DNA of 64,000 bases from Coriobacteriaceae bacterium EMTCatB1 (GTDB lineage: Bacteria > Actinomycetota > Coriobacteriia > Anaerosomatales > Anaerosomataceae): positions 1,215,979 through 1,279,978 of the forward strand of contig BDLO01000001.1 of NCBI GenBank assembly GCA_001950395.1, in the 5' to 3' direction. Positions 7,601-13,398 of the stretch are shown here, one piece after another. The notes below the pieces were generated by a model. That model was not told the origin of the DNA. It saw only the letters and a list, made by a program, of their open reading frames with translations, and did not search any database. Made by a program: the position numbers and the translations under genes. Every line of letters begins with the position of its first letter. Positions within the stretch are counted from its first letter, which is position 1.

Positions 7601-7696
7601 GACGAACGGCCGCTGAGCGGCGAAGTGTGCCGTTCGTCACTTTATCCTGACGTTCGGCAGAAAGCCCTGGCCGCGGGCTACGCGCGTACCGATATA
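7601..7696 (+). promoter_or_regulatory. Promoter/operator module A of the surface-protein locus
   Basis: Contains GCCGTTCGT (7629-7637) and a second copy GACGTTCGG (7649-7657) 20 bp later, both close to the published LytTR-regulator repeat consensus [TA][AC][CA]GTTN[AG][TG]. A perfect inverted copy, GACGAACGGC (7601-7610), pairs with GCCGTTCGTC (7629-7638). ACCGATATA (7688-7696) serves as a -10-like box. The distance from CCGTTCGTCA to CCGATATA is 59 bp, the same as in modules B and C. The inverted repeat could also terminate the upstream gene. Confidence 0.6.
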
Positions 7697-7736
7697 TGGG
7701 ACGACTGCCAGATGGCGGCAGCGACGGAAGGCGCAG

Positions 7737-10409
7737 ATGAGCACCACACGGCTCCAGACGGCAACGGGACGCCGCGGCGGCACACGTCGCGGCTTCGCTG
7801 CGCTCGCAGCCCTGCTCGTTGCGGTGCTGCTCGCTCCAGCGCTGCCGAGCGTCGCGCTCGTCCGTACGACCATCACGATAGACGGCGCGTTCGCTGACTG
7901 GGCCCGCGTCTTCGAAGATCCCGCGAACTGCGTCTACGACGCCACGGGAGATTCGTCGAGCTCCAACACCGACCTCACCGTGCTCGCGTCCACCTACGAC
8001 GACACCTACCTGTACCACTACATCCGCCGCGCCGCCACCGGCGGTGGCGCTGCCGCTCCGAGGTACACGGTGTACCTCGACCTCGACGGCGACGGTCGCC
8101 TAAAGAACACGGACATGGCGGTCGTCTACAAGCTCACCGGCAAGAACACCTTCTCGTCAGGCACGCTGTACCGGTACGTGCCTTCTGACGTCACGAACGG
8201 CGACCCGATGCCGGGCGACGCGGGCAAGCCGGCAGGATCGCTGGGCGCGCAGGTGACGGCGACCATAGCGGGCGCTGGCGCTCCCGGCGGCGTCGAGCTC
8301 GAGACCCGCATCCCGTGGAGCGCGCTCGGCGTGCCCGCCGACTCGCCCGTCGGCATGCAGTTCACCTCCGACCTCGGCAGCGCTTCGGACAGCTCGGACG
8401 TGGTCTCTCTCCGGCGCTACGGCGTCTCGCTCGAACCCGACCGCGCGTCCGGCGCCTCTGCGGACACGACGGTCACCTACGTGCACACGCTGACGAACCT
8501 CGGCAACACGCAGGCCACCTTCAACCTGGCTGCGGACTCCTCCAAGCGCTGGCAAGCGACCATCACGCTCGCCTCTACCGGGCAGCCGATCACGAGCGTG
8601 ACGCTCGCTGCCGGCGCCTCCGTCGAGATCGCCGTGCTCCTCCGTGTTCCCGCCAACGCCGCAGACGGCACCCGGGACACGCTCACGGTGACGGCGACGC
8701 ACGCACAGAAGACCGACGTCGCCGACACGGCGACAGACGTCACCACCGTCGGGCCCGTGCTCATCATCCCCGACCAGTACGGCTCGATGGCGCCGGGCCA
8801 GACCATCACCTACCGCAACACGGTCACCAACAACACCGACGAGACGCGCACAATCACGCTGACGGCGTCCTCCGACAAAGGGTGGGCAGCCGAGATCCGT
8901 GACGGAAGCGGCGCTTCAGCGGTCACCTCGCTCACACTCTCGCCGCGTCAGAGCACCGTGATCACCGTCCTCGTGACGTTGCCTGCAAGCGCGCCGCTCG
9001 GCACCGTGAACGTCACCACGATCGCAGGCCAGGTCGTGGGGGCGCCCAACCTCAAGGGCAAAGGCTACGACACGACGACGGCGCGACCGGCGCTGAGCGT
9101 CGCCCCCGTCGCCGCCTCCGCGCCTGCGGGAGCAGGCAGCGCAGTCTGGTACCGCCACACAGTGCAGAACAGCTGGCCGACGACGAGGACGATCTCGCTG
9201 TCTGCCACATCCTCGCGCGTGTGGCCGGTGCAGGTGCTCGCCGCAGACGGGCTCACACCGATCACCACGCTCACGCTGGGCCCCAACGGCGGCGCGGCGG
9301 ACCTCGTCGTGCGAGTCCGTGTGCCTGCGGGCACAGCGGCAGGAACGGTCGATGACACCACGCTCACCTGCACCGCTGGCCCGCACACGGCGACTGCCAC
9401 CGATCGCACCACCGTCAGCTCGCTTGCGACCTTCGGAGTCGGCGGGTTCGGCGCGCCGCAGGACGCCTTCCAGCTCGGAGACACCGTGTACGCGCGCGGC
9501 ATGGGGCTGACGCCTGGCACGCAGGTGCGGTTCCAGTGGACAGACCCCTCGGGGACGGTCGTCCGCACCTCGAAGCTCATCAACGCCGACTCCACCGGCA
9601 TCGCGCAAGACGCGTACGTCATCGGCGCGACAGCTCCGGTCGGGACCTGGACGGTCACGCTCCTCAGCAGCACCGGCACGGTCATCGCCTCCTCGCCCTT
9701 CTACGTCGGCTACCGGGCCCGCGTCGCCGCCATGTCGGTGGCGGGAGGGGATGCCATCGAATCGACCTTGACCGTATCCACCACCCTCGCAAACGAGGGC
9801 GCTGTTCCGCTTGCCGGGACGACGGCCCGCTGGGTAATCTGGCGCGACGAGGACTCGGACGGCGCCTTCGGCCCTGGCGACGGTTACCTCGCGCCTGACG
9901 GCTCCTGGGCGACCTACGGGAGCGGTGCCGGGTACACGCACGAGGCGACGGGAATCGCCGTTGGGTCCGGCTCTCAGGCGTCACTGACGTGGGAGGCTCC
10001 CACGATGGGACTGCCGATCGCAGGCGAGTATCACCTGAGCGCCGTGTGGTCGACGTCCACGGGCATGACGATCGCGCAGCGCGAGACCGTCTTCACCGCC
10101 GTGCCTGGCTCGCCGTGGATCGAGCTCACGCTCTCGGAGACCTCCGTCGACTTCGGCGACGTCGTCCCGGGCGTCGTGTACGAGCGCCCGAACCTGGGCG
10201 TCTTGGTCCGCGCGAACGTCGCATTCGACCTCGTGCAGACGCTCAGTGGCGCGGTGTCCTCGCTCGGGCTTTCCGCGCAGCTCGGCTCGCTTTTCAGCCA
10301 GGCGAGCGGCGAGCGCGCGTACACCGACGCAATCCGCATCGACGTTCCGTGGGACACGGATCCCGGCACGTACACGGCATCTGTGGTCTACACGGTGGTC
10401 GCACGATGA
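7737..10409 (+). CDS. Large secreted multi-domain surface protein with Ig-like repeats
   Basis: 890 residues with a signal peptide (basic to residue 18, hydrophobic to about 33, likely cleavage near APALPSVA). Residues about 42-225 resemble a CBM9/DOMON-like beta domain (TITIDGAFADWARVF, YLDLDGDGRL). Three repeats of about 105 residues follow (about 228-338, 342-445, 452-560), each with a pattern such as TVTYVHTLTNLGNT and VTLAAGASVEIAVLLRVPA, like alpha-galactosidase NEW3 domains. Two further Ig-like domains follow; the last (about 800-890) begins SETSVDFGDVVPG and resembles the downstream small protein (PATVDLGDVDP). An Asp-rich segment, DEDSDGAFGPGDG, may bind calcium. No sortase motif, SLH domain or C-terminal helix is seen. 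GGAAGG precedes the ATG. Confidence 0.7.
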   Translation: MSTTRLQTATGRRGGTRRGFAALAALLVAVLLAPALPSVALVRTTITIDGAFADWARVFEDPANCVYDATGDSSSSNTDLTVLASTYDDTYLYHYIRRAATGGGAAAPRYTVYLDLDGDGRLKNTDMAVVYKLTGKNTFSSGTLYRYVPSDVTNGDPMPGDAGKPAGSLGAQVTATIAGAGAPGGVELETRIPWSALGVPADSPVGMQFTSDLGSASDSSDVVSLRRYGVSLEPDRASGASADTTVTYVHTLTNLGNTQATFNLAADSSKRWQATITLASTGQPITSVTLAAGASVEIAVLLRVPANAADGTRDTLTVTATHAQKTDVADTATDVTTVGPVLIIPDQYGSMAPGQTITYRNTVTNNTDETRTITLTASSDKGWAAEIRDGSGASAVTSLTLSPRQSTVITVLVTLPASAPLGTVNVTTIAGQVVGAPNLKGKGYDTTTARPALSVAPVAASAPAGAGSAVWYRHTVQNSWPTTRTISLSATSSRVWPVQVLAADGLTPITTLTLGPNGGAADLVVRVRVPAGTAAGTVDDTTLTCTAGPHTATATDRTTVSSLATFGVGGFGAPQDAFQLGDTVYARGMGLTPGTQVRFQWTDPSGTVVRTSKLINADSTGIAQDAYVIGATAPVGTWTVTLLSSTGTVIASSPFYVGYRARVAAMSVAGGDAIESTLTVSTTLANEGAVPLAGTTARWVIWRDEDSDGAFGPGDGYLAPDGSWATYGSGAGYTHEATGIAVGSGSQASLTWEAPTMGLPIAGEYHLSAVWSTSTGMTIAQRETVFTAVPGSPWIELTLSETSVDFGDVVPGVVYERPNLGVLVRANVAFDLVQTLSGAVSSLGLSAQLGSLFSQASGERAYTDAIRIDVPWDTDPGTYTASVVYTVVAR

Positions 10410-10449
10410 GAAGACGGTCGACACAGCGGTTCCATCTTCCACGAGATGC

Positions 10450-10536
10450 TCCGCTCGTCTGCGCTATGTGCCGCTCGTCACGCTATTTCGCCGCGCGGCA
10501 GACGAGCGTCAAGCGAGGTGGTGCGTAGGCCGATAC
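10450..10536 (+). promoter_or_regulatory. Promoter/operator module B of the surface-protein locus
   Basis: Two direct copies, TCCGCTCGT (10450-10458) and GCCGCTCGT (10470-10478), lie 20 bp apart, with an inverted GACGAGCG at 10501-10508. A sigma-28-like pair follows: TCAAG (10509-10513), a 15-bp spacer and GCCGATAC (10529-10536). CCGCTCGTCA is 59 bp upstream of CCGATACA, as in modules A and C. The leader of about 75 nt contains a small hairpin, CGGCC-AGAA-GGCCG (10547-10560). Confidence 0.6.
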
Positions 10537-10619
10537 ACGCACCAGACGGCCAGAAGGCCGACATTCGAAGGAAGACAGCCCGGGAAGGGCGACCGGTTCA
10601 GAAGAGAAAGGAACCAACG

Positions 10620-11030
10620 ATGAAAAGGACCATCCTGATCGCAGTCGCAGTCGCGGCGCTCGTGTTCGGCGTCGTGGCCTACGCGAACGCCGCAACGAGC
10701 GGCTCCGTCACCGTGAGCGCGACCGTGAAGCCGCAGATGGAGATCACCGTGCCCGCGACGGTCGACCTCGGCGACGTCGATCCGTACACGCCAGCCACCG
10801 GCACCGTGACCGTCACCGGCAAGTCCAACAAGAACGCTACGCTCTCGGCGTCCGTCAACGCTGGCACCTTCACGACGCTCAACAGCACAGTCGCTGATGC
10901 GTCGCCCGTCGCCTGGGGCAAGGGCGGCAACCTGAGCTACGACGACACCGTCACCGGCACGGTCGACTGGAGCATCGACGCTGGCACGGTCGTGAGCGGC
11001 CAGGTCACCTACACGATCGCGCAGCCGTAA
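10620..11030 (+). CDS. Small secreted beta-rich surface protein
   Basis: 136 residues. The N-terminus MKRTILIAVAVAALVFGVVA is a typical signal peptide with likely cleavage after YANA. The mature part begins ATSGSVTVSATVKPQMEITV and is Val/Thr-rich, predicted as all-beta. PATVDLGDVDPYTPATGTVT matches the start of the last domain of the large upstream protein, and ATSGSVTVSA matches the start of the next small protein (ATSGTVTVTA), so the three are related. There is no anchor motif, so it may be released or assembled onto a partner. AAAGGA lies seven bases before the ATG. A strong terminator follows. Confidence 0.68.
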   Translation: MKRTILIAVAVAALVFGVVAYANAATSGSVTVSATVKPQMEITVPATVDLGDVDPYTPATGTVTVTGKSNKNATLSASVNAGTFTTLNSTVADASPVAWGKGGNLSYDDTVTGTVDWSIDAGTVVSGQVTYTIAQP

Positions 11031-11055
11031 CAGCACCGCGCACACGAGCGTCAAG

Positions 11056-11088
11056 AGAAGCCCCCGCGTGCGCGGGGGCTTCTTCTTT
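11056..11088 (+). terminator. Rho-independent terminator
   Basis: GC-rich hairpin with arms AGAAGCCCCCGC and GCGGGGGCTTCT around a GTGC-type loop, followed by TCTTT. It ends the transcript of the small surface protein 26 bp after its stop and isolates it from the next module. Confidence 0.9.
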
Positions 11089-11124
11089 GTCCCTGAATCC
11101 GTCTACCGCTTCGCGTGCCTCAGC

Positions 11125-11199
11125 CGAACGGTACCGTTCGTCAGATAAACGGCTCAACTAGCCGTTCATCGCTAAATTACTTCCGTTGGGTGCCGATAT
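11125..11199 (+). promoter_or_regulatory. Promoter/operator module C of the surface-protein locus
   Basis: Contains a perfect 16-bp palindrome, CGAACGGTACCGTTCG (11125-11140), which includes ACCGTTCGT (11133-11141), an exact match to the LytTR repeat consensus. A second copy, GCCGTTCAT (11161-11169), forms an inverted repeat with AACGGC (11148-11153). A sigma-28-like promoter follows: TAAA (11173-11176), 15 bp, GCCGATAT (11192-11199). CCGTTCGTCA to CCGATATA is again 59 bp. Confidence 0.65.
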
Positions 11200-11228
11200 A
11201 GAAGGCAGAGCGGAAGGAGGCGGGCACG

Positions 11229-11525
11229 ATGAAGCGGACCAAGACGATGAGGGTAATCGGAGCCGGGATCCTCGCGGCGCTGCTCATCGCTTCGGCCGCC
11301 TTCGCCGCCACGAGCGGCACCGTCACGGTCACCGCTCGCGTCCGGGCGTACGCGGCCATCACTCAGACTGACGCGCAGCACGTGCTCGTCAAGGCCAACA
11401 CCCCGTGGACGCTCGAAATCCTCACGCTAACCGGCGAGAAGGTGCGTGTCGACGGCTTCAAGACGAGCGGGACCGCAGTCGAGCTTCCCGAGAACGCAGC
11501 CGCCTACTCGCTCATCTGGGACTGA
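11229..11525 (+). CDS. Small secreted surface protein with a WxL-like motif
   Basis: 98 residues. The signal peptide spans about 1-27 (MRVIGAGILAALLIASAAFA, cleavage after AFA). The mature start ATSGTVTVTARV is paralogous to the preceding small protein. NTPWTLEILTL contains Trp-x-Leu, reminiscent of the WxL motif of Gram-positive surface proteins, and a convergent DUF916-like gene (the WxL-associated family) lies next to it. The real WxL domain is much longer, so this is only suggestive. GGAAGGAGG lies eight bases before the ATG. Its 3' end overlaps the convergent gene by 22 bp. Confidence 0.65.
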   Translation: MKRTKTMRVIGAGILAALLIASAAFAATSGTVTVTARVRAYAAITQTDAQHVLVKANTPWTLEILTLTGEKVRVDGFKTSGTAVELPENAAAYSLIWD

Positions 11526-12568
11526 TCGCCCTCGCTGATCCCTGGCGCCTCGCGGATCGCGCTGCGAGCCTGCGCCCTTCGCGCCTCGCGCCGCTCCCGC
11601 TCGATCTTGCGAGTCGCCGCTTTCACACTCGCGCGCCACGACGCCCACATGGCGAAGCCGCCCACGATCACGATGACGGCGATGGCGAGCCACAGCGGAA
11701 CCACCCACACCGTGCGCTGCTCGGTCAGGCGCTCCGGGATGTCTGTTTGCGCGCCCTCGCGCGGATACTCGACGTCGAGCCGGACCGCGTACCTACCGAG
11801 CATCACGCCGCCTGGCCTGAGCACGCCCGCGTTCTCCGCCATCGCACCAGCGTATACAGTCGTCTCGGTCGCCTCCTGACTCACGAGCTCGGCGCCAGAG
11901 GGCGCCTGCAGCGTGATCGTGGCGCGCACGATCTTGTCGATGTTGCCCTCGTTGCGCACCGCGTACGAGTACGGGACGCGATCGCCGATGATGAACGAGC
12001 GCACGACGAACGGCTTGATGAGCAGCCGCTCGACGATCTCGCCCTTGACCCGGATCCTGATGCGCGACGCCAGGCGACCCGACACCACCGCGTGCGCCTT
12101 GTCAGCGCTCACGTTCTTCGGAGGCGCCATCTCGAAGAACAGCAGAATCTGGTGGTCCCCGGGCGGCACGCCCTCGGGCACCTCGAATGTGAAGTCCACC
12201 TGCTTGCGCTCGTTCGGCGCAAGCTCGATGTACGGCACGTTGCCGCGGGACTTCATCTCGCTCGACATCTTCACCTGGAGCCACGACGCCGGGTTGTCGA
12301 TGCCGCCGACGTCGCCCGGCTTCGGGATCTCGAACGAGATGCGACCTTCCTCGTCGATGACCTGGTTGCCCGCGTAGATGTAGACCTCGATGGGCTCCTT
12401 GCTCGGGTTCATGACGACGACCGAGCCCTGGCCCTTCTGGCCGGCAGCCACCTGGAAGTCGAAGGAGCCCGTCGAGAGCGCGAGGGTGCGCTCAGCCGAC
12501 GCCGCAGCGGGGACCAGCAGCACGAGTGCTGCGACCAGCAGCGCGAGCGCGCGTGTCTTGCGCCTCAC
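11504..12568 (-). CDS. Membrane-anchored DUF916/WxLIP-like surface protein
   Basis: 354 residues. A signal peptide (about 1-25, ending AAASA) is followed by an extracellular beta-rich region typical of DUF916/WxL-interacting proteins: LSTGSFDFQVAAGQKGQGSV, VVMNPSKEPIEVYIYAGNQV, and EVPEGVPPGDHQILLFF followed by a second Ig-like domain. One membrane helix near the C-terminus (VVPLWLAIAVIVIVGGFAMW) precedes a basic cytoplasmic tail. DUF916 proteins anchor WxL proteins and bind peptidoglycan. The GTG start overlaps the TGA of the LytTR regulator (GTGA), tying this protein to that regulator. It faces the secreted proteins it may hold on the surface. Confidence 0.72.
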   Translation of the reverse strand: MRRKTRALALLVAALVLLVPAAASAERTLALSTGSFDFQVAAGQKGQGSVVVMNPSKEPIEVYIYAGNQVIDEEGRISFEIPKPGDVGGIDNPASWLQVKMSSEMKSRGNVPYIELAPNERKQVDFTFEVPEGVPPGDHQILLFFEMAPPKNVSADKAHAVVSGRLASRIRIRVKGEIVERLLIKPFVVRSFIIGDRVPYSYAVRNEGNIDKIVRATITLQAPSGAELVSQEATETTVYAGAMAENAGVLRPGGVMLGRYAVRLDVEYPREGAQTDIPERLTEQRTVWVVPLWLAIAVIVIVGGFAMWASWRASVKAATRKIERERREARRAQARSAIREAPGISEGDQSQMSE

Positions 12569-13308
12569 AGCCCCACCGCTTCCTTGAACTGCTTGAGGTG
12601 GCGGCGAGCTACGGGGATCTGCGTCTCGTCGCGGTCGGTGACGACCACCACGTACGCCCCGTCGACGCGCAGGATCTCCTTGATCTTCTCGAGGTTCACG
12701 ATGAAGCTGCGATGCACGCGCTCGAAGCGCTCTTTGGCGAACCGCTCCTCGATGTCCGAGAGCGTCAGATCGACGAGGTACTGGTTCTCGTAGGTGTGCA
12801 CGTACGTCGACTTGTTCTTGGCCGAGATGTACACGATGTCGTCCACGCTCAACAGCACCGTCCGTCCGCCCTTGCGCACCGCCAGCTTGCGGAACTCGCT
12901 CTCGCCATCGCGCACCCGCACCGCTGCCCGCGGACGCGTCTTGGCCAGACTCTGGACGCGCGCCGAGAGCTCCATGAGGTTGAACGGCTTGGTGACGTAC
13001 TGCTGCACGCCTTGCTTGAACGCGAGGATCTTCGCGAGGTCCTGCGTCTTGGCGGTGAGCATGATGACGGGGATGTCGGCGGTCTCGGGGTTGTTGCGGA
13101 TCTCCATGAGCGCCATCCAGCCGTCGACGCGCGGCATCATGATGTCGAGCAGGATGACGTCGACCGCCTCGCGAGCGAGGACCTCGAGCGCCTCTCCCCC
13201 GTCGCCCGCAGACAGCACCTTCATGCCGTCCGCCTCGAGCCCCATGCGGATCATGTCGACGATGGCCGGATCGTCATCGACCACCAGCACGGTGATGGGC
13301 TCGTCCAT
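12565..13308 (-). CDS. Response regulator with receiver and LytTR DNA-binding domains
   Basis: 247 residues. The receiver domain spans about 3-125: acidic pocket D11-D13, phospho-acceptor D55 (VILLDIMMPRVDG), the Thr of IMLTAK and the Lys of VTKPFN. The LytTR domain covers about 150-245 (VDDIVYISAKNKSTYVHTYE, RVHRSFIVNLEKI). LytTR regulators bind pairs of short direct repeats upstream of weak promoters, and matching repeats precede the three secreted genes nearby. No cognate kinase is adjacent. The ATG used has GAAGGGA upstream; a longer frame adds 32 unlikely residues. It is coupled to the DUF916-like gene by a 4-bp overlap. Confidence 0.92.
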   Translation of the reverse strand: MDEPITVLVVDDDPAIVDMIRMGLEADGMKVLSAGDGGEALEVLAREAVDVILLDIMMPRVDGWMALMEIRNNPETADIPVIMLTAKTQDLAKILAFKQGVQQYVTKPFNLMELSARVQSLAKTRPRAAVRVRDGESEFRKLAVRKGGRTVLLSVDDIVYISAKNKSTYVHTYENQYLVDLTLSDIEERFAKERFERVHRSFIVNLEKIKEILRVDGAYVVVVTDRDETQIPVARRHLKQFKEAVGL

Positions 13309-13392
13309 GTGAGTCCCTTCCGACGACCGTTTTCCCGTGCCTGCGAGCCGCTCGTCCCCCAGTATGTGCCGACGAGCGCCCGCCGTGCGGCG

Positions 13393-13398
13393 AGTATA
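13393..13398 (-). promoter_or_regulatory. Candidate -10 of the LytTR regulator operon
   Basis: TATACT on the minus strand, about 85 bp upstream of the response-regulator start, in the context GCGGTATACTCG. No good -35 hexamer is visible, which fits an activator-dependent promoter. Confidence 0.45.

Follow-up and report, generated by a model that had tools for sequence, protein, structure and literature searches.

Candidate joint control of surface-protein genes by a LytTR regulator and WhiG in Coriobacteriaceae bacterium EMTCatB1 and its relatives

Introduction

Three promoters of the surface-protein genes A, B and C in Coriobacteriaceae bacterium EMTCatB1 share two short boxes at one fixed spacing. 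The genes lie in a window, the whole 64,000-nucleotide stretch of DNA analyzed, at C1:1215979-1279978 of a genome that is one contig (C1) of 1,838,614 bases. The window has a G+C content of 67.9%. A receiver-LytTR (REC-LytTR) response regulator and the sigma factor WhiG probably act jointly to switch on these three genes and one or more distant ones, as judged from sequence comparison.

WhiG is known for roles in sporulation in Streptomyces and in pili in Rubrobacter. Promoters of the WhiG/flagellar sigma class have the -10 element GCCGATAA and the -35 element TAAA (PMC8325347). The Rubrobacter system resembles the present one in its WhiG orthologue in unicellular actinobacteria, its TAAA/GCCGATAA promoters and pilin genes as likely targets, but it has an extra input through RsiG and c-di-GMP and has neither a LytTR regulator nor a WxL-like cluster (PMC8325347). 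Coriobacteriia are not mentioned in that paper.

The regulators HdrR, BrsR and AgrA (PMC6193735, PMC4227749) have in common with this locus a LytTR domain, similar half-sites (ACCGCTTAT, GCCGCTTAG), control of their own genes and a site near -60, where AgrA binds (PMC4227749). Their tandem 9-bp sites have repeats 11–13 bp apart; here, promoters A and B have an 11-bp spacer and the two boxes of promoter C are 28 bp apart from start to start. Their operators precede housekeeping-type -35 and -10 elements, whereas here the -10 is of the sigma-28 type, and in the regulator's own promoter region the box mostly follows the -10. Dependence of sigma-28 promoters on a DNA-bound activator has a precedent in E. 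coli CRP, which is needed at aer and trg (PMC2859248), although CRP belongs to another activator family and acts from position -49.5.

Firmicutes WxL/WxLIP (DUF916) clusters encode a small one-domain protein, a large protein ending in that domain and a DUF916/WxLIP protein (PMC10599100), and so does the present locus. It differs in phylum, in regulation and in having a single W-x-L-like motif in the C family only. Each part has a known relative. A literature search, thin on subscription journals, found no description of a LytTR regulator at sigma-28/WhiG promoters, including those of a WxL-like surface cluster.

Results

Upstream boxes (CCGYTCGTCA) start at 7630, 10471 and 11134 and CCGATAYA boxes at 7689, 10530 and 11193, giving a start-to-start spacing of 59 bp at all three promoters. 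This pattern was reported in a first-pass annotation made from the sequence alone, and every coordinate and spacing was verified. A genome-wide scan for random matches to CCGYTCGTCA-N48-50-CCGATAYA returned three sites in 1.84 Mb, all at this locus, and none in a reversed control, which leaves the reported pattern standing. Shared spacing was also tested with any two exact 6-mers at one distance in all three promoters, which allows for post-hoc choice of motif. One pair was observed (TCGTCA...CCGATA), and none in 2000 dinucleotide shuffles. The shared box pair is real and specific. The upstream box alone is unspecific (47 genome sites versus 26 in the reversed control) and too common to define a regulon.

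Flanking sequences had been described as otherwise different, which holds only in part, as promoters A and B share an operator of about 34 bp (TGTGCCGYTCGTCAC..TAT....C....CGGCA) of which the upstream box is one part. Further box copies 20 bp away, also reported earlier, were found in A (7628/7648, 83% identical) and B (10451/10471), and the exact match to the LytTR consensus in module C is ACCGTTCGT. Features of the locus, in window coordinates, are as follows.

7601-7610, minus strand: inverted box copy, GACGAACGGC, upstream of A
7626-7659, plus strand: promoter A operator, TGTGCCGTTCGTCACTTTATCCTGACGTTCGGCA, with the box at 7630-7639 and, 20 bp further along, another half-site at 7648-7659; same operator in the sister species
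7688-7696, plus strand: promoter A -10, ACCGATATA, WhiG/sigma-28 type; TAAA absent at N14-16
7737-10409, plus strand: gene A, encoding a secreted protein of 890 aa that has Ig-like domains and, at its C-terminus, a domain (residues 791-888) homologous to B
10451-10460, plus strand: promoter B upstream copy of the box, 79 bp ahead of the -10
10467-10500, plus strand: promoter B operator, TGTGCCGCTCGTCACGCTATTTCGCCGCGCGGCA, containing the box at 10471-10480
10509-10512, plus strand: -35-like TCAA of promoter B, N16
10529-10537, plus strand: promoter B -10, GCCGATACA
10620-11030, plus strand: gene B, 136-aa secreted one-domain beta-sandwich protein
11120-11145, plus strand: inverted box pair of promoter C (arms 11120-11132 and 11133-11145), including the box at 11134-11143
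11162-11170, plus strand: promoter C second box, CCGTTCATC, 31 bp ahead of the -10
11173-11176, plus strand: promoter C -35, TAAA, N15
11192-11200, plus strand: promoter C -10, GCCGATATA
11229-11525, plus strand: gene C, encoding a secreted protein of 98 aa that contains the motif NTPWTL
11504-12568, minus strand: gene for a DUF916/WxLIP-like surface protein; it overlaps the regulator gene's end
12565-13308, minus strand: REC-LytTR response regulator gene (247 aa), whose product is the likely binder of the boxes
13348-13356, minus strand: box in the regulator gene's own leader, GACGAGCGG
13393-13398, minus strand: probable -10 of the regulator gene, TATACT

The pattern is found upstream of orthologues in the sister species, and one further genome (G012) has it at the same locus. 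A strict two-box search of 119 relatives gave matches in nine genomes only; conservation looked poor because box variants used across the order were excluded, and these were then allowed. Outside the genus, box-to-CCGATA distances cluster at 59–61, 79–81 and 39–40 bp, in steps of about two helical turns (14 loci dropped out of this test). Among 179 anagrams of CCGATA used as a control, the mean was 0.05 pairs at 58–60 bp and the maximum was 2, the highest being overlapping words. The conservation upstream of orthologues that the first-pass annotation had called for thus extends beyond the sister species. Many relatives have a recurrent locus with a gltA-like gene, the regulator, the DUF916/WxLIP gene, small secreted proteins, a large secreted protein and a DUF711 gene, and some show losses from it. 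B genes occur in 42/62 genomes with the regulator and in 1/7 without it (Fisher p = 0.0098, uncorrected for shared ancestry and assembly gaps).

The regulator next to the locus, noted in the first-pass annotation, has a LytTR domain (PF04397, 93.2 bits, cut-off 22.6) and a receiver domain (PF00072, 97.4 bits) with VILLDIMMPR around the phospho-acceptor Asp. It carries FERVHRS where LytTR regulators have the motif FhRhHRS (h, hydrophobic; PMC4227749); all fixed positions match, and position 2 is E rather than a hydrophobic residue. Its best NCBIfam match is BtsR (NF008677, 112.3 bits), below the 246-bit equivalog cut-off, and it was not named as such. Assignment of the locus to the LytTR regulatory systems (LRS) was rejected, as the regulator has a receiver domain and its neighbor is a DUF916/WxLIP-like protein, not a membrane inhibitor.

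The form CC(G/A)(T/C)TC(G/A)TC of the upstream box resembles published LytTR half-sites, including the actinobacterial GCCGCTTAG (PMC6193735), and is probably a LytTR site. Besides the tandem copies in A and B, inverted copies occur. The majority sequence over 20 B-gene promoters is TGTGCCGcTcgTCACacTaTTcCGCCGtaCGGCA, then about 24 bp, then cCCGATAc; exceptions that are without most of the operator are G027, G018, G022 and UBA7524. The strongest pointer to the REC-LytTR protein as binder is the enrichment of boxes upstream of its own gene, with 40 boxes in the regions from 38 genomes (28/38 with at least one) and 0.7 expected. Three further sets of conserved genes from these loci had no boxes upstream, and a fourth, small control set (DUF711, five upstream regions) had one.

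There is no kinase gene beside the regulator. The only LytS-type kinase found in the genome (L264, at about C1:1640.4-1642.4 kb) is next to a second LytTR regulator of 237 aa, and could be either a partner of the orphan regulator or a rival for the boxes. In the latter case another regulator, most plausibly the 237-aa protein with its kinase, would bind the boxes and control the surface genes and the orphan regulator gene. The presence of this pair in the same genome, of LytS-type kinases in 65/71 genomes, and of similar half-sites among LytTR proteins fit such an arrangement. It is nonetheless unlikely, since in one genome after another the boxes concentrate at the locus of the orphan regulator itself, and LytS is also present in G016, G042 and G051, which have neither the orphan regulator nor B genes.

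The CCGATA(T/C)A box is best read as the -10 of a WhiG/sigma-28-class promoter, not as a regulator site. Reading it as a second LytTR site was rejected. (G/A)CCGATA(T/C) is present in all three promoters and fits the published -10 (GCCGATAA). Promoter C is TAAA-N15-GCCGATAT and promoter B is TCAA-N16-GCCGATAC; in this promoter class, TAAA is expected 14–16 bp before the -10. A WhiG orthologue is encoded in the genome (NF004935, 370.3 bits, cut-off 343). Its best PDB match is 6pfj at 315 bits, versus 182 bits for a FliA. The match table labels 6pfj an RNA polymerase sigma factor, and we take it to be WhiG, as the subject of the Rubrobacter paper. The WhiG profile scores above cut-off in 66/71 genomes searched, and flagellin was detected in 0/71 genomes of the order searched.

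Sites of the form TAAA-N14-16-GCCGATA are far commoner than in a reversed control across 61 genomes. Across the order, TAAAG-N-GCCGATA is found 54–77 bp ahead of genes for type IV pilins, with no LytTR box there. In EMTCatB1, such a promoter lies at C1:866772-866797 on the minus strand (locus L032, 8373-8717), and further pilin-linked promoters of this type are in L104, L106, L107, L110, L111, L114, L118-L120 and L129. The pilin genes that follow encode starts like MRMF..DEGFTLVELMVVVL or similar. Pilin genes are therefore probable WhiG targets in this order, as in Rubrobacter, and genes A, B and C appear to belong to the same sigma class. CCGATA might instead be part of an element that serves the housekeeping sigma factor or a different one, with the LytTR reading of the upstream box unchanged. 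Promoter A without TAAA and several relatives with CCGATA and no -35 match speak for this. However, promoter C is a full match, and the order-wide excess over control of GCCGATA with TAAAG at sigma-28 spacing, together with its position before pilin genes, makes this reading distinctly improbable.

The regulon is probably larger than the three genes proposed in the first-pass annotation. A fourth site (C1:117366-117431, minus strand; loci L236, L033 and L034) has a box 61 bp before CCGATA and TAAG-N16-GCCGATA. It precedes a conserved gene for a 192-aa protein with no Pfam match. Most likely by chance, a relaxed two-box search of 12 genomes matched at many places; the C1:117366 site is set apart from these by its occurrence in G001-G003 as well. 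In G005 (L131), the locus lacks the WxLIP and surface genes but retains the regulator, with paired boxes in its promoter region, so the regulator should have other roles there.

Box copies were also observed elsewhere. In EMTCatB1, GACGAACGG occurs twice, together with CGAACGG, just upstream of a dihydrolipoamide-dehydrogenase-like gene (L072, C1:87999), and a gene for a secreted protein is preceded by a box about 39–40 bp ahead of GCCGATGA (L074, C1:127297). In G011 and G021 (L039 at 7599 and L040 at 383), two boxes 17 bp apart, the first 57 bp from GCCGATA, are upstream of a PAS-like signaling gene.

The surface cluster (7737-12568) appears WxL-like in layout. Residues 791-888 of protein A match the B profile at 41.8 bits, and the DUF916/WxLIP protein matches PF06030 at 31.8 bits (cut-off 27.3). 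The structural model of B, which is of good confidence (pLDDT 86.7), is a secreted beta-sandwich domain. Many domains of the Ig-like, pilin-subunit and MSP types resemble it, with middling Z scores (best 8.7); with such scores across many fold types, no family was named for B. The C family keeps a single NTxWxL motif. No match to the Pfam WxL domain, which has a dual Trp-x-Leu motif, was found for A, B or C at E 0.1, and the cluster is therefore not classed as a WxL member.

Discussion

In the proposed mechanism, RNA polymerase with WhiG would read promoters whose -10 is CCGATA(T/C)A. The REC-LytTR regulator, probably phosphorylated, would bind CC(G/A)(T/C)TC(G/A)TC half-sites, often paired about 20 bp apart, at about 65–70 bp upstream of the start as placed from the -10. 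The main box copy is centered 54–55 bp before the -10. Bound regulator would activate WhiG polymerase at promoters with a mostly weak -35 (poor in A and B, a full TAAA in C), and expression of A, B, C and one or more distant genes would require both inputs. The sequence itself shows the boxes with their spacing and conservation, the WhiG gene, and WhiG-type promoters elsewhere, and from these we infer the binder, activation, autorepression and the need for both inputs.

Activation is favored because the box position is like that of AgrA (about -60) and because the B promoter of G027, which has no box upstream, has a full TAAAG...GCCGATA. The regulator also probably represses its own gene through the leader box, a role suggested by the position of this box mostly downstream of TATACT, or in some genera directly before it.

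Control of the three genes by the neighboring LytTR regulator, as first annotated, gains from conservation at orthologues, the spacing, boxes at the regulator's own promoter, likeness of the operator and co-occurrence. It is supported in part, with CCGATA reassigned as a probable WhiG -10 and the regulator as a putative binder. Several findings weigh against the proposed mechanism. The box scores only moderately against published LytTR sites (best 0.8–6% of window 9-mers), the genome has a second LytTR regulator, and the boxes of promoter C (11134/11162) are not 20–22 bp apart. The B promoters of G004 and G014 have the operator and no CCGATA, and 20/62 genomes have the regulator without B genes. 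Promoter A has a -10 only, with no sigma-28 -35 (TAAA) at N14-16, and the full TAAA of promoter C means that a weak -35 is no general trait of the three.

With the orphan regulator as binder, the effect on the surface genes might also be repression or anti-silencing, not activation. The box in its own leader, downstream of the -10, is in a repressing position, and sequence cannot tell the direction of control. Against this, the surface-gene boxes are well upstream of the -10 at helically phased distances typical of activators, and the -35 elements of A and B are poor, so repression of the surface genes seems quite improbable. Chance or a simple recent duplication of one promoter, conceivable from the likeness of the A and B operators across 34 bp, is disfavored given the conservation and hardly credible beside the shuffle result (0/2000 with a comparable pair), the spacing kept in other genera despite diverged flanks, and the same spacing in a different arrangement at promoter C.

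Activation of A, B and C by the LytTR regulator with WhiG may be one case of a wider system. Tentatively, a two-input switch across Anaerosomatales might license a WxL-like surface coat or fiber alongside type IV pili, its inputs being an orphan LytTR regulator and WhiG, the latter possibly under c-di-GMP control as in Rubrobacter. This is perhaps linked to the appendages of Parvivirga, which are made only with solid ferrihydrite. If true, it would be a first example of WhiG polymerase being activated by a LytTR regulator.

The boxes, spacing and predicted starts are precise enough for direct tests, and cultivated relatives exist. For an order of subsurface actinobacteria that has been little studied, the findings describe a conserved candidate regulon with a defined operator. 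They join two regulatory families, LytTR and WhiG, that the literature searched did not show together. If the proposed mechanism is true, surface proteins would be added to the targets of WhiG, with an environmental signal as the second input.

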